A stretch of DNA of 64,000 bases from Magnetovibrio blakemorei (GTDB lineage Bacteria; Pseudomonadota; Alphaproteobacteria; Rhodospirillales; Magnetovibrionaceae): assembly GCF_001746755.1 (NCBI RefSeq), contig NZ_MCGG01000027.1, positions 1 to 64,000 on the forward strand. Direction: 5' to 3'. Both the position numbers and the translations under genes were made by a program. The notes under the pieces were generated by a model. It was not told the DNA's origin. It worked only from the letters and a program-made list of their open reading frames with translations, and made no database searches. Below, piece by piece: positions 33,185 to 42,038 of the stretch (the first letter of the stretch is position 1; each line of letters starts with the position of its first letter).

Positions 33185-33400
33185 GCCCCAATTCATCGGG
33201 GCCACAACACACACAGGCAGGTCTCCTGGCTCACGGATCAGAGTTTTCTTGCGCCTTCCCAAGACTGAAGCCTCAGTGGCATGTGCAAGTCAACTACCGT
33301 TAACAGTTGCGGGGGCAGCCATGGTTCAGGACCCGTCAAGGTCATCCCTACCATGTTCCCTTTTCATCCAGCAGGCTTTGCCCGCTTAGAACCTATGCAT
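33185..33400 (-). promoter_or_regulatory. cobalamin riboswitch upstream of cbiM
   Basis: Minus-strand leader with the conserved cobalamin elements in order: TGCCCCCGCAACTG core, GCCACTG, and the B12 box AGCCAGGAGACCTGCC (33232-33217). A hairpin GGCCCC/GGGGCC at 33185-33204, between the aptamer and cbiM, is the likely expression platform. Coenzyme B12 binding should shut off cbiM. Boundaries of the aptamer are approximate. Confidence 0.93.
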
Positions 33401-33564
33401 ATCTATGTTTGGCAGAGCCCTCAGCATATGGCAAGGCATTTCAACGTTCACACCAGTGTGGTTTTACAGATGCGGGCGCGAATAGTCTTTGATTATCAGT
33501 GTGGAATGCGTCAGAGTCTCTCAAGGATGTCATTTTGACATCCCTATCTTGGCGTCATAAAATC
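33401..33564. promoter_or_regulatory. divergent promoter region, cbiM leader / GNAT gene
   Basis: Non-coding stretch between the 5' end of the cobalamin riboswitch and the start of the GNAT-peptidase gene. It should contain both promoters. No clear operator was seen. An in-frame GTG at 33499 would extend the GNAT protein by 22 residues that lack similarity to the family. Confidence 0.4.
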
Positions 33565-36216: not shown

Positions 36217-36876
36217 TTAAGCGCTGTAGGCGTCTCGGATGGCTTTGATGGTGGCAACGTAATCATCGCCCTTAAACACTGCCGAGCCAGCGACCAAGCA
36301 GGTTGCGCCCGCGTCCACAACCGATTTGGCGGTGGCTGCATTGACGCCGCCGTCGACTTGGATGTCGATGGGACGGCCCGCGATCATTTCTTTGACCTGG
36401 GTGATTTTGTTCAGTGCGGCGGGAATGAAGCTTTGACCGCCGAAGCCCGGGTTGACGCTCATGATCAAGACCATATCGAGCTGATCAATGACGTTTTCCA
36501 GCACGCTCACCGGGGTGTGCGGGTTCAGGCTGACGCCGGCTTTTTTGCCCAAGCCTTTGATCACCTGGATGGAACGGTCCAAGTGCTTGTCGGCTTCTGC
36601 GTGAACGACGATTTGGTCGGCACCGGCTTTGGCGTAATCTTCCAAGAACGGTTGCGCCGGGTCGATCATCAAATGCACGTCGAAGAATTTTTTGGTCCAC
36701 GGACGAATGCACGCGATTACGGGCGGGCCGAAGGTCAGGTTCGGCACAAAGTGACCGTCCATGACGTCGATGTGAATCCAATCCGCACCCGCTTCGTCAA
36801 CGGCTTTGACTTCTTCGCCGAGGCGCGCGAAATCAGCAGACAGAATGCTGGGAGCAATTTTGACGTAATCAGTCAT
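36217..36876 (-). CDS. rpe: ribulose-phosphate 3-epimerase
   Basis: 219-residue TIM barrel that interconverts ribulose 5-phosphate and xylulose 5-phosphate, needed in the Calvin regeneration phase. Motifs: [36 protein letters not shown] (metal-binding His and Asp), [11 protein letters not shown]-like [15 protein letters not shown], and VDGGVN with GSAVF. Start at ATG 36876; the longer open frame runs into the structured non-coding stretch upstream. It lies downstream of cbbO in the same direction. Confidence 0.96.
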
Positions 36877-36931: not shown

Positions 36932-37112
36932 GAAGGCCCCCGCCAGAGACGGGGGCCTTCCGGGTGGTTCTGGGATAGGTGCGAGCGGACCTCCCCAGGT
37001 TTACTCGTCGCCCAGAACCTCCGCGATCCGGAGCTCATTCAACGTCTTCAACGTCTGTATTGGCAGCTTATGTAAGCCCCCTACCCAATCGGTTTTCACC
37101 GACGAATGAACA
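36932..37112 (-). ncRNA. candidate structured small RNA or long leader (about 180 nt)
   Basis: Minus-strand RNA-like unit with no ORF. From its 5' end: an outer TCATTC/GAATGA pairing that encloses a GGT-GAAA-ACC tetraloop hairpin and an ATTGG...GCTTACATAAGC...CCAAT stem; then CTCCG/CGGAG; then a rod GGTTCTGGG/CCCAGAACC (37011-37019 with 36966-36974) containing ACGAG/CTCGC and ACCT/AGGT; last a GC-rich 11-bp hairpin at 36932-36960 with a modest U-rich tail. A good promoter lies just upstream. It could be a free sRNA or the attenuated leader of rpe. No known family recognised. Confidence 0.5.
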
Positions 37113-37118
37113 TATTTT

Positions 37119-37147
37119 CTTGTATGGCAGTTTCCTAATAAAGTCAA
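37119..37147 (-). promoter_or_regulatory. sigma-70-type promoter for the candidate RNA
   Basis: On the minus strand TTGACT (37147-37142), a 17-base spacer and TACAAG (37124-37119), which is four of six matches at -10. The predicted start is near 37112, the 5' edge of the folded segment. Confidence 0.55.
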
Positions 37148-37237
37148 CGCAACAAAGCCTTAAACGGCAGAATTTAAGTACTTTTTCGCAATTCCCAACC
37201 CTATTGGGTAGTCACCTGCTGCCCATTTAAATGGTCT

Positions 37238-39520
37238 TTACTTGGTTAAGGACATAAACAGTTGCGGTAATCTTTCCGGCAGCCGTTCAACATTGTCGAT
37301 AACGGTGTATTGATTCCCAAAAATGTCGCCAATGTAGTCGTCGGCCTTTTTGTCAAGATTGATGCAGTACGTATAAATCCCCAGTTGGTCGAGTTCTTGA
37401 ACCGCTTTGCGGGCGTCTTCGATCAAGTGGCGTTCGTCCGATACATCAATGTCGAACGGTTCGCCGTCGGTCAGCACCAGCATGAGTTTTTTATCCGATT
37501 TGCGTTGCGACAAGGTCTGCGCCGCGTGGCGCATGGCCGCGCCCATGCGGGTGGAATAGCCCGCTTCTATGGCGGCCAAGCGGCCTTTGACTTCATCGTT
37601 CCAGGACTGTGAATAGCCTTTGATGTGCTGATAGCGCACTTCGTGACGGGAATTGGATGAGAACCCGGCAATCGCCAACTCGTCACCCAAACAGTCCACC
37701 GCCCAGCCCATCAAAGACACCGCTTCCTGACTGAGTTCCAAAATGGTTTGCGAGCAGCCTTCAGGAATCTCGTTCACCGATTGGGACAAATCCAACAGCA
37801 ACATGACGGAGATATCGCGGCCGTCATGACGGTGGCTCATGTTGATGCGGGGGTCCGGTTGGGCCCCGGACTTGAGATCGATGAGCGAGCGAATGGCCAC
37901 GTCCAAATCCAGCTCAGAGCCTTCTTCTTGGTAGCGTACCCGCACGTAATGCTGTGGCTTCAGCAGATCCAAGATCTGTTTCAAACGCTTGGCCAGCATG
38001 GCGTGCTTGGCCAGCAAGCCGTCGATCACCCCGGCATCGCCCATGGGGTGCAGGCTTTCGTACAGGCTCACCCAATCGGGACGGTAGGTTTTGGACAGGT
38101 AGTCCCATTCCGGATAATGACGCGGCGGCAAGCCTTGTTCGTCTTCGCTGTCTTGGTCTTTGGCGTTGCGCTCTTGCTGGTCAAACATTTCTTCTTCGTC
38201 GCCCAGCTCGTGGTATTTCCACATGTGGCGATTGTCGTCTCTGTAATTGACTTCGGTGTCGGTGAAATAGACTTGAGCCGACTGGTCTTGCTGGCGGCGC
38301 GTGCGGGCGATAAACGAAATCGCCAAATTGGCAATCTCTTGGGTCGAGCTTTCGCCCTTTTTCATTTCGTCCAAAAAGCGCTCTGCGTATTCAATCACGT
38401 CTTTGTTTTCATAGCCGTGGTCCGGGTCCAACACGGCATAGGAAAACATCGCCAAACGATGGCGGATGCATGACTGAATTTCCGGGTTGCAATCGCCTTC
38501 GATGGGTCTGGGATGTAGAGCCAAAAACAAATTCACCAGACCCGGATATTCGCGCATGGCCAGATGCTCAACCCGGCAATCTTCAAACATTTCCGCCGCG
38601 ACCCGTTGAAAGGGGCTGAAATTGTCGGCGAAAATGGCCTGGGTCCAACGCCGGTGTGCGGCCATGTGGGCCAGCAAAACGCGGTAACGATCCGTGCCCT
38701 TGACCCGCAACCCGGTGCCGGGGCGGACAAAGTCATCGTACACATCGGGCACCCGCAACCCCAGCTCGTCAAAGTACGGCATGGGTTTGCGCAGTTCGTC
38801 ATAGCCCAGCGAATACGGCACAAAATGCGCGTCGTGCTCGCTCCACAGGCCTTTCATATACAGCCCCATTTTGCGTTCGTTGTCGGCGAACAAGGTGCCG
38901 TGACGTTCGCGCTGCAAGATCGCTTTGGAATCTGCGGACTGTAACGAAAAATAGTCTTTTTGCCGTTCCGGATGGCTGAGGTAATGGGTGGCTCCGTAGG
39001 TGATCCAGTTTTTCAGGCCTTCCAGTGACAACTGGCTCAACAGATACGGCATATGCGCCAGCATTTCGGGCAGACCGGGGCTGGGAATGGTGGTGTGAAA
39101 ACCGTGGATGGAACCGGTGGTCTTTTCCATGAAGGCAAACAGGGTGTCGATGTATTGGCTGAACAAGTCATGGGAGCGCAAGCGCCGGGCGGCTTCGCCC
39201 AAAGTCTGCAAAAACGGCAAGATGGCTTTGCCGTTGGGGGTGCGCGACATCTTCCACACCGATTGGGAGACCTGTTCGATCACACCCTCGCCCAGACGCT
39301 CGGCAATTTCGGGCATTTCGGCCAGGTAAACCTGCACCGGCTCAAAGCCGCGACCAATCATGCAAATCAGCGACGCGCCGTCCAACAAGGTGCGCACACC
39401 TTGCGGGCTGAGGCGCTGGACAGCGTCTTCCATACACCCCGCGAACGCGGTGTCGAGCTGCTCAAACCCACACGTGAGTTGGCTGCGCAGTTCGTCCAGT
39501 TCGGCTTGGTTGAGGGTCAT
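37238..39520 (-). CDS. cbbO: CbbO, von Willebrand A-domain RuBisCO activase subunit
   Basis: 760 residues. CbbO works with the AAA+ protein CbbQ to remove inhibitory sugar phosphates from RuBisCO; it provides the adaptor with the VWA domain. The long helical N-terminal part is followed by the VWA domain in the last 200 residues, with the metal site MLLLDLSQSVNE, a Thr in SRHEVRYQHIKG-downstream TRMG, and LVLTDGEPFDID. It belongs to the NorD/CbbO family, and position behind cbbM-cbbQ fixes it as CbbO. Separated from cbbQ by a 210-bp repeat-bearing gap. Confidence 0.94.
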   Translation of the reverse strand: MTLNQAELDELRSQLTCGFEQLDTAFAGCMEDAVQRLSPQGVRTLLDGASLICMIGRGFEPVQVYLAEMPEIAERLGEGVIEQVSQSVWKMSRTPNGKAILPFLQTLGEAARRLRSHDLFSQYIDTLFAFMEKTTGSIHGFHTTIPSPGLPEMLAHMPYLLSQLSLEGLKNWITYGATHYLSHPERQKDYFSLQSADSKAILQRERHGTLFADNERKMGLYMKGLWSEHDAHFVPYSLGYDELRKPMPYFDELGLRVPDVYDDFVRPGTGLRVKGTDRYRVLLAHMAAHRRWTQAIFADNFSPFQRVAAEMFEDCRVEHLAMREYPGLVNLFLALHPRPIEGDCNPEIQSCIRHRLAMFSYAVLDPDHGYENKDVIEYAERFLDEMKKGESSTQEIANLAISFIARTRRQQDQSAQVYFTDTEVNYRDDNRHMWKYHELGDEEEMFDQQERNAKDQDSEDEQGLPPRHYPEWDYLSKTYRPDWVSLYESLHPMGDAGVIDGLLAKHAMLAKRLKQILDLLKPQHYVRVRYQEEGSELDLDVAIRSLIDLKSGAQPDPRINMSHRHDGRDISVMLLLDLSQSVNEIPEGCSQTILELSQEAVSLMGWAVDCLGDELAIAGFSSNSRHEVRYQHIKGYSQSWNDEVKGRLAAIEAGYSTRMGAAMRHAAQTLSQRKSDKKLMLVLTDGEPFDIDVSDERHLIEDARKAVQELDQLGIYTYCINLDKKADDYIGDIFGNQYTVIDNVERLPERLPQLFMSLTK

Positions 39521-39730: not shown

Positions 39731-40546
39731 CTAGCCGAAAACGGCATCAATTGTGTGCTTCAACGTTGCGGCAATGTCCGCATCGTCGGTGATGGGCGCC
39801 ACCAAAGCCATGCGGCATGCGGCGTTGGGGTTGATGCCTTGCTTGATCAAGCGTGCGGCGTAGACCAACAAGCGCGTTGAGATGCCTTCATCCAGGCCGT
39901 GGCCCTTCAGATTGCGCGCGGTGGCGCCGATTTTCACCAGCTTGGCGGCGGTGTCTTCATCGGTTCCCGTTTCTTTGGCAATGATGGCGGCCTCGACAGC
40001 GCCTTCGGCATAATCGAAATTCAGCCCGGAAAAGCGCTGTTTGGTTGACTGTTTTAAGTCCTTCATCAGGCTTTGATAACCGGGGTTGTAGGAAATCACC
40101 AATTGGAAATCGGCGTGGGCGTTGACCAATTCACCCTTTTTATCCAGCGGAAGCGTGCGGCGGTGATCGGTCAGCGGGTGAATGACGACGGTGGTGTCTT
40201 GGCGCGCTTCAACCACTTCGTCCAGATAACAAATCGCGCCGATACGCGCCGCCACGGTCAGCGGGCCATCCAGCCAGCGGGTGCCGTTGGCATCCAACAA
40301 ATAGCGCCCCACCAAATCGGACGCGGTCATGTCTTCGTTACACGCCACAGTAATCAGCGGTTTTTTGAGCTTCCATGCCATGTATTCGATAAAGCGTGAT
40401 TTACCGCACCCGGTGGGGCCCTTGACCATCACCGGAAGACGTTCGGCATAAGCGGCCTCATACAGTGCCACTTCGTTTCCGGTGGGCTGATAATACGGCT
40501 CTTGAGTGATCTGGTACTGTAAAACGTCTATTTCATGGCTGGGCAT
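39731..40546 (-). CDS. cbbQ: CbbQ, MoxR-type AAA+ RuBisCO activase
   Basis: 271 residues. ATPase half of the CbbQO RuBisCO activase. Walker A GPTGCGKS at 43-50, Walker B AICYLDEVVEAR, then the DHRRTLPLDKKGE pore-loop region, sensor motif FQLVISYNPGYQSL and arginine-finger region KQSTKQRFSGLNF. Immediately downstream of cbbM behind a terminator. Related NorQ proteins have the same fold; the neighbours decide for CbbQ. Confidence 0.95.
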   Translation of the reverse strand: MPSHEIDVLQYQITQEPYYQPTGNEVALYEAAYAERLPVMVKGPTGCGKSRFIEYMAWKLKKPLITVACNEDMTASDLVGRYLLDANGTRWLDGPLTVAARIGAICYLDEVVEARQDTTVVIHPLTDHRRTLPLDKKGELVNAHADFQLVISYNPGYQSLMKDLKQSTKQRFSGLNFDYAEGAVEAAIIAKETGTDEDTAAKLVKIGATARNLKGHGLDEGISTRLLVYAARLIKQGINPNAACRMALVAPITDDADIAATLKHTIDAVFG

Positions 40547-40658: not shown

Positions 40659-42038
40659 TTATTTGTGCACGCCCAATTTTTCGCGCCAACCGGGGAAGAT
40701 CGTATCGGCATCGCCGGGGAAGCTTTCGAACGCGCGCGCAAATTCTTTGTGCTCTTTCGCGAATTCGATGGGATCAGCGCCCTGCTGCCAGCATTCGTAA
40801 GCCTGACGCAGCGAGATCGCACCCGCAGCCGGGCTGTCGATGTGACCGTAGGAACCGCCACCGGACGTGTTGATCAAGTTGGCGTGGCCCAGGTTTTCGA
40901 AGAAGCCCGGCAAACGCAGTGCGTTCATGCCGCCCGAAATGATCGGGGTGGTCGGCTTCATGCCATACCATTCCTGGTGATAGAAAGGACCGTCGGCGCT
41001 GTCGCGTTCGATCATGTAAGCGATGTTTTTATCGGTCGCATCGCCTTCCATCTTGCCGTAGCCCATGGTGCCCACATGGATACCGGAAGCACCCTGCAAG
41101 CGGCTCATTTTGGCCAACACAAAGGCGGTGTAACCGCGTTTTGCGGACGGCGACGTCACAGCGCCGTGACCGGCACGGTGATAGTGCAGGTACTGGTTGG
41201 CAAAGTGACGACGAGCGGTGGTGACCATACCGGGGCCACCCACATAACCGTCAACCAAGAACGCAACCTTGTCGGCGTCCGGGCCGAAGGTGTTCAAGAT
41301 GAATTCGCCACGGGCCATCATTTCATAGTGATCGTCAGCGGTGATGTTGGCGGAGAACAATTTGGCTTCGCCGGTTTCATCCATAGCGCGCTTCATGGAG
41401 TCATAGACCAAAGGAATGGTTTCGCGCATCGGCGAGAACACCTGGTTGCCCTGGGGTTCGTCGTTTTTGATGAAGTCGCCGCCCAGCCAGAACTGGTAAG
41501 CCGCTTCGGCAAAGGGTTTCGGACGCAGGCCCAGCTTCGGTTTGATGATGGTACCGGCGATGTAACCGCCGTTGACCACGGGACGGCCCAAAATGCGCCA
41601 CAAATCGGAAATGTCTTTGGACGGACCGTCGAACAAACGCAGGTATTTCTGCGGCACGTAGAAATCGAGCATCTTGGCGTAGGCGATGTCGCCCATGCCT
41701 TGGTTGTTGCCGATGGCCAACGTCAAGAACGACACGATCATCGCGCGGCCGTCGGTGATGTTGCGGTCGAACAGATCAACCGGATAGGCGATCTTCATGA
41801 TTTCTTTGGCTTCGTCGATTTCGTAAACGAGCGCGTCAACACCTTTGGTGAAGTCATCCGTGGTGGACACTTCAACGTTGGTGCCGGTGGACGATTCAGC
41901 AGAGAAGTGAGCGGCGGCTTCAAGGTAACCGTAGCCGGTCTTCGGTTTCATCAAGTAAGCAACAAGAACGTGGTTGCCGCCTTTGATCAGGTCGTCTTCT
42001 TTAAGGCTCAAGTCTGCGTAACGATTGGACTGGTCCAT
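40659..42038 (-). CDS. cbbM: form II ribulose-1,5-bisphosphate carboxylase/oxygenase
   Basis: 459-residue form II RuBisCO large subunit, the CO2-fixing enzyme. Active-site residues align by number with the Rhodospirillum rubrum enzyme: Lys166 in [10 protein letters not shown], carbamylated Lys191, Asp193 and Glu194 in [11 protein letters not shown], then YHRAGHG and the [13 protein letters not shown] and [10 protein letters not shown] phosphate loops. No small subunit gene is present, as expected for form II. Such enzymes suit low O2, high CO2. Divergent from cbbR with a 270-bp control region. Confidence 0.98.

Follow-up and report, generated by a model that had tools for sequence, protein, structure and literature searches.

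What is the RNA that appears to fold between the RuBisCO operon and rpe in Magnetovibrio blakemorei MV-1, and which gene does it serve? The window analyzed here (64,000 nucleotides [nt], positions 1 to 64,000 of contig NZ_MCGG01000027.1) comes from a genome of 3,638,804 bases in 91 contigs (PMC5122692). Along the minus strand, the order is RuBisCO large-subunit gene, cbbQ, cbbO-type gene, element, and rpe, with the following features.

40659-42038, minus strand: RuBisCO large-subunit gene, named by reading of its translation
39731-40546, minus strand: cbbQ, adjoining the cbbO-type gene (PF08406)
37238-39520, minus strand: cbbO-type gene with a VWA domain (PF00092; no NCBIfam match)
37147-37119, minus strand: promoter-like TTGACT-N17-TACAAG (TTGACT at 37147-37142, 17 nt, TACAAG at 37124-37119), from a consensus reading only
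37112-37030, minus strand: variable 5' leader with a three-way junction, conserved in neither sequence nor fold
37024-36960, minus strand: conserved core hairpin (P1, P2, and P3 with a GGGG loop), from covariance model R1 and covariation
37019-37011 with 36974-36966, minus strand: P1 stem, GGTTCTGGG/CCCAGAACC, with compensatory changes
37007-36982, minus strand: near-invariant heart, CGAGUAAACCUGGGGAGGUCCGCUCG, identical in 12 of 14 genomes
37007-37003/36986-36982, minus strand: P2
37000-36997/36992-36989, minus strand: P3, with its loop at 36996-36993
36961-36931, minus strand: GC-rich hairpin resembling an intrinsic terminator, followed by a pyrimidine-rich CTTTC tail
36217-36876, minus strand: rpe, ribulose-phosphate 3-epimerase, the downstream gene (TIGR01163, 302.7 bits against a cut-off of 212.6; PF00834)

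The Calvin cycle and the pentose phosphate pathway both require the product of rpe. The gene at 37238-39520 we take, from its position, to be cbbO. The initial annotation had placed the element between rpe and cbbO; that location is confirmed, the gene that it precedes being rpe, with the element lying downstream of cbbO (both on the minus strand). Beyond rpe lies a convergent gene with similarity, below the cut-off, to RimK-type ATP-grasp proteins.

The predicted folding energy of the whole 216-nt stretch is -88.9 kcal/mol (z = -4.32), and none of 200 dinucleotide shuffles folds as well. The nested hairpins described initially are present in the sequence, but the upper ones fall outside the conserved unit and have no shared fold in relatives. 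The observation of a structured RNA unit was real: compensatory changes are found, and 14 of 18 genomes of the family carry the module. Its conserved part is narrower, a 65-nt hairpin joined directly to a terminator-like one.

The core hairpin is constrained and covaries

In the core, outer stem P1 encloses the letters CGAGU-AA-ACCU-GGGG-AGGU-CC-GCUCG. P1 contains the 9-bp rod noted at the outset. Of the checks that had been proposed for the unit, a covariance model was built from relatives, and compensatory changes favor the fold of P1. Model R1 and the count were based on 11 of the 14 copies, leaving out G003, G004, and G005, whose cores repeat others; R1 matches the MV-1 core at 88.2 bits, the MV-1 copy itself being in the model. 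Across the 11 distinct copies, 86.3% of core cells pair, compared with 81.7% in shuffles. Changes on both sides occur at 8 pairs; shuffles average 2.9, and none of the 500 has as many. These double changes are all in P1, of whose cells 77.7% pair. Four of five covariation measures lie above all 500 shuffles; the remaining one, further pair types, is weak (37 of 500 as high). P2 and P3 hardly vary, so that the pairing predicted there is without covariation support. Unguided RNAalifold returned the same stems minus four P1 pairs. P1 and P2 contain 18 G-U cells (10 from one P2 pair), against 4 A-C cells over the 20 pairs given by RNAalifold, counts that point to the module strand as sense. The 66-nt stretch with the conserved hairpin reaches a z of only -2.38 (5 of 200 shuffles are as good), and the core hairpin is thus supported by conservation and not by stability.

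Twelve of the 14 genomes share all 26 nt of the heart; G010 has two substitutions and G007 a 1-nt deletion. Over an ungapped 31 nt, 10 of the 11 relatives scored match MV-1 at 94 to 100%, and G007 matches at 0.71; G010, which like G013 was outside the scoring, differs at 5 of these 31 positions by a count from the printed letters. For rpe, among 12 of the 14 genomes (G010 and G013 were left out, their rpe being cut at contig ends), the mean identity at fourfold sites is 0.41 (range, 0.24 to 0.66; 66 pairs), and the longest invariant run within the gene is 5 bases. Core and heart therefore appear to be under strong constraint although rpe fourfold sites are near saturation. The core anchor of the 14 loci is the string CCTGGGGAGGTCC, which is invariant there by selection of the loci; the search with R1, made without that string, gave the same 14. 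The invariant letters of the heart are predicted to be mostly paired and do not form an open seed.

A terminator-like hairpin at a fixed distance from the core

The terminal GC-rich hairpin that had been described is present, and a GC-rich hairpin with a U-rich tail, as in intrinsic terminators, occurs in all 14 genomes and is a predicted terminator in each. Tails contain 5 to 9 U in the next 12 nt, with 5 U in 12 in four of the 14 genomes, and some of these U-poor tails look weak. The seven pairs of the central stem are standard in every genome, with compensatory changes at 4 of the 7 positions. The consensus scan gave two terminator-like sites (mean of 0.8 expected), one of which is a short register inside this hairpin.

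In MV-1 no linker separates the terminator from P1. The RCCYY motif of the terminator lies 30 nt from the core in 12 genomes and 28 nt in 2, a rigid spacing compared with the floating distances to the promoter and the ATG, so that the two hairpins look like one unit. The stem of the terminator is 40 to 116 nt from the rpe start codon across the 14 genomes, the shortest distance being that in G003, where only 40 nt separate the central stem from the ATG. The 5' arm of the terminator reads RCCYYYG in all 14 genomes and is unusually complementary to GGGGAGGUC of the core.

Promoter-like sites and a variable 5' leader

The promoter-like TTGACT-N17-TACAAG of the initial annotation is present on the minus strand, and an RNA initiated from it would start near 37112 in MV-1. 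It is not listed by our consensus scan, in which the second hexamer must end in T; the one promoter-like site that the scan did list lies at 36928-36899 (mean of 0.4 expected). In 10 of the 14 genomes, TTGACT or TTGACA with a scoring second hexamer at 16 to 18 nt precedes the core anchor by 79 to 150 nt, a count that carries no shuffle control. The remaining four, which belong to genus g5, have TGTTTAT and TATATT in common, by reading. Two g5 genomes (L011 and L014) have an extra TTGACA 52 to 54 nt before the anchor, too near for the whole of P1, and both have the letters TATAAT behind the terminator. A promoter-like site downstream of the core is present in five genomes, including MV-1 (score, 9 of 12), and the other nine have no site there scoring 8 of 12. 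In some genomes, rpe may have its own promoter behind the terminator.

The leader between promoter and core is variable. In MV-1 the upper junction is stable for its composition (z = -3.64), the corresponding part of six relatives gives z values of -1.28 to -2.40 with folds unlike one another, and the 5' part is only 19 to 41 nt long in 7 of the 14 genomes (measured from the chosen second hexamer). A conserved upper junction was rejected, there being no shared fold in relatives and so short a 5' part in half of the genomes. Similarly, the GGT-GAAA-ACC loop, described initially as GNRA type, is present in MV-1, but its GAAA is not conserved in the alignment of relatives.

Alignment A3 of the six g1 genomes has 13 invariant columns among 107, 10 of which fall in CCRAYNGGGTAGG. 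This motif is kept in all six (L006 has A at Y) and may be a DNA site. The same six genomes have CTACCC-N4-GGGTTGG upstream (37195-37211) and CCRAYNGGGTAGG downstream (37080-37092) of the promoter-like site, the two being roughly mutual inverts that may be operators for a single regulator. The idea that the palindrome-like CCWACCSGGTWGG marks a wider regulon was rejected: five of six genomes have it in one place each, and only the G004 match is at this locus. A control pattern for this search had two matches per strand in MV-1.

The module was found in one family only, directly before rpe

A DNA search of 41 genomes, MV-1 included, found the module in 14, and the search with R1 recovered the same 14 among 18 genomes of the family, with one strong match in each; three further R1 matches, at E values of 2.5 to 6.8, were in G002, G004, and G013. 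Of the family genomes lacking the module, G012, G016, and G017 also lack an rpe match, and their assemblies are incomplete and thus uninformative. Within the family, G006 alone has a match to rpe but lacks the module, its cbbO-rpe gap being about 55 nt. In a sample of the order, 17 of 248 genomes matched, comprising 14 family members and three weak matches at E values of 0.026 to 0.57; these three were rejected because their alignments showed stems that do not pair or lacked letters of the loops or helices. Samples of the class (385 genomes) and the phylum (398 genomes) gave one match each, in both cases MV-1. The order, class, and phylum samples overlap, and their stricter filters lose weak matches. 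A pattern scan of genome contigs hit 10 contigs (Magnetovibrio sp. and Rhodospirillaceae, Rhodospirillales, and Thalassospiraceae metagenome-assembled genomes), each equal in length to a locus already found; there were no matches in viral contigs and none in plasmids at an E value of 0.01. As far as searched, then, the module is restricted to one family, with no credible copy outside it.

In all 14 carriers, the module stands directly before rpe, with a cbbO-like gene on its other side (tblastn; in G010 and G013 the contig ends within rpe). The gene beyond rpe differs between MV-1 and G001, G003, and G004, by reading. At an E value of ≤1e-20, 19 of the 22 genomes searched have one rpe each and the rest have no rpe match; with a single rpe per genome, that gene must be transcribed.

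Two loci depart from the common arrangement. In G013 (L068 1-5404), what lies upstream looks like a form I RuBisCO operon, so named by reading, whose cbbO is distant (34% identity) and is followed by two small genes, and the module is still before rpe. G006 (L063 2873-8191) has a RuBisCO-type gene, cbbQ, cbbO, and rpe packed closely together with no module among them, adjoined by a divergent LysR-like gene (RuBisCO and LysR by reading). In 10 family genomes in which the gene is complete, Rpe shares 88 to 95% identity with that of MV-1, the value being 79% in G009 and 81% in G006; rpe fourfold sites agree with MV-1 at only 0.28 to 0.55 despite this high protein identity, and cbbO identity is 71 to 88% in most of the same loci.

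The module matches no Rfam family

The initial annotation could assign the element to no known family, and Rfam 15 likewise gave no match at the gathering score on it. The best sub-threshold matches at E values of up to 10 were 6C at 27 bits (cut-off, 47), rnk_pseudo at 20.3 (55), and Phe_leader at 20.2 (55), which chiefly fit the terminator hairpin. At E values of up to 1, the single overlap among 13 relatives was Hrs1 (25.2 of 56.4 bits) on the opposite strand in one relative. Elsewhere in the window, the Rfam search found a cobalamin riboswitch at 33199-33411 on the minus strand (115.5 bits).

Like 6S RNA, the element would be a stable transcript of roughly 180 nt with a promoter before it. 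This identity, already doubted at the outset, was rejected: RF00013 has no match at the module at E values of up to 10, the ends of the 216-nt stretch are unpaired in the predicted fold, and a separate 6S match lies elsewhere in all six family genomes searched, MV-1 among them (five of the six matches are above the cut-off). CsrB-type or CsrA-binding RNAs feature GGA triplets, which the module also has, one of them at a hairpin loop. A CsrA target or sponge was rejected as well, since CsrA was found in 1 of 18 family genomes (G011) and 13 of the 14 carriers have no detectable CsrA, several assemblies being incomplete.

In its conserved loop nucleotides within a covarying stem, beside a terminator and a metabolic gene, the module is like orphan riboswitch candidates and structured leaders, but unlike those candidates, it was found in one family only and shows no strand exchange with the core strand as partner. 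A looser, working analogy is with the processive antitermination RNAs HK022 put and EAR, which are also cis RNAs upstream of a terminator and could act on polymerase without refolding. Literature searches returned nothing on this element. The main texts of PMC2864571, PMC6429828, PMC8632094, and PMC11109978 make no mention of an epimerase, an rpe motif, Calvin, pentose, Rhodospirill-, or Magneto-, and an unnamed listing in their supplements is possible. Judged by these comparisons, the module is a genuine, narrowly distributed orphan RNA family without an Rfam match.

A leader of rpe, a small RNA, or neither

The alignments establish a near-invariant heart in a covarying stem, at a fixed distance from a terminator-like hairpin, 40 to 116 nt before rpe and with promoter-like sequence upstream, in 14 carriers. 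It is probable that such a module regulates rpe or serves as a small RNA. That all this is chance structure in a GC-rich intergenic region is hardly credible: the modest z of the 66-nt hairpin stretch speaks for it, but the recurrence in 14 genomes with fixed spacing and near-identity at high divergence, together with compensatory changes exceeding all 500 shuffles on four of five measures, speaks against it for the core, and only the upper junction may be of this kind. It is quite unlikely that the element merely closes the RuBisCO operon in the usual way, as a stabilizing hairpin and terminator behind cbbO that have nothing to do with rpe. A cbbO-like gene does lie upstream in every carrier, and a terminator between the operon and rpe would separate the two; however, a plain terminator needs neither a near-invariant 26-nt heart amid near-saturated silent sites nor a promoter-like site behind cbbO, G013 has two small genes between its cbbO-like gene and the module, and in G006 the same series of genes lacks a module.

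A classical metabolite riboswitch, with the heart as aptamer and a ligand choosing between terminator and antiterminator by strand exchange, also seems unlikely. In its favor, the covarying stem has internal loops that do not vary and stands ahead of a terminator and a metabolic gene, and the 5' arm of the terminator pairs with GGGGAGGUC at a mean of -13.4 kcal/mol (12 arms), the comparison mean being only -8.7 (86 GC-rich arms among 120 terminator-like hairpins from the window and other loci, module copies left in). This excess is modest against composition-preserving shuffles of the same arms (the mean rank is 0.18, and two of the 14 arms rank near 0.05 or lower). Moreover, with the GGAGGUC strand of the core as partner, the strand-exchange fold is 22 to 42 kcal/mol worse than the normal fold, pairing of the core with the terminator 5' arm is 9 to 24 kcal/mol worse even before the 3' arm exists, and P2 and P3, the aptamer of this scheme, vary too little for covariation to support their pairing. 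Strand exchange with the core strand as partner was rejected, there being no competing fold of comparable energy, and the pairing bias of the terminator arm toward the core remains odd.

The main rival of a leader is a stand-alone, trans-acting small RNA of about 100 to 180 nt with its own promoter and terminator, the heart of which would bind protein or RNAs, with rpe incidental or fed by readthrough. We give this reading tentative credence. All 14 genomes have a promoter-like site (four of them by reading), a structured RNA, and a terminator-like hairpin, both hairpins are stable with no antiterminator visible, and the distance to rpe floats. Against a free RNA, each carrier has a single strong match, next to rpe each time, and no module was found away from that gene; the paired state predicted for most of the invariant letters does not suit a seed, and G003 leaves no room for a separate rpe promoter.

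Of the two possibilities raised initially, a new small RNA or a leader, we favor the leader for its fixed place before rpe and the little room for another promoter. Because only 40 nt separate terminator stem and ATG in G003, too little for a separate promoter, rpe in that genome very likely depends on readthrough, and it is on this dependence that a leader is preferred over a free small RNA. Both may hold, since an attenuated leader also releases a small RNA. That the module is a structured leader, giving rpe its own promoter and attenuating at the terminator, is a proposition on which we are evenly divided; more generally, this genuine orphan module probably regulates rpe. The constant position before rpe, G013 with its different upstream operon included, supports the leader, as do the short cbbO-rpe gap of the module-free G006, the nine genomes without a scoring site downstream of the core, the rigid spacing of the two hairpins, and the strong constraint. 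Against it stand the lack of a workable antiterminator with the core as partner, the downstream promoter-like sites in 5 of 14 genomes, the TATAAT letters in L014 and L011, the U-poor tails of several members, and the fact that synteny within one family can persist without function.

Under the leader model, RNA polymerase would start at TTGACT/TACAAG, transcribe the module, and by default stop at the hairpin, freeing an RNA of about 180 nt in MV-1 and of about 100 to 130 nt in those genera whose 5' part is short. Recognition of the invariant P2/P3 heart by a ligand or protein would then alter readthrough into rpe, presumably by an effect on polymerase or on the hairpin abutting P1 and not by strand exchange, and the module would uncouple rpe from the RuBisCO operon ahead. 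A bolder and rather doubtful version is that the module represents a new class of gene-control RNA, in which a rigid two-hairpin unit responds to an intermediate of the Calvin or pentose phosphate pathway, or to a bound protein, sets rpe readthrough without strand exchange, and arose in one family upon the uncoupling of rpe from the RuBisCO operon.

Implications

The module is a well-delimited orphan RNA under unusually strong sequence constraint, and its carriers, one of them a cultured strain, have Calvin-cycle genes. The family also offers a natural comparison between G006, with rpe directly behind cbbMQO and no module, and the 14 genomes in which the module stands between them. If the module does control rpe, an RNA would regulate the point at which carbon fixation and the pentose phosphate pathway diverge.
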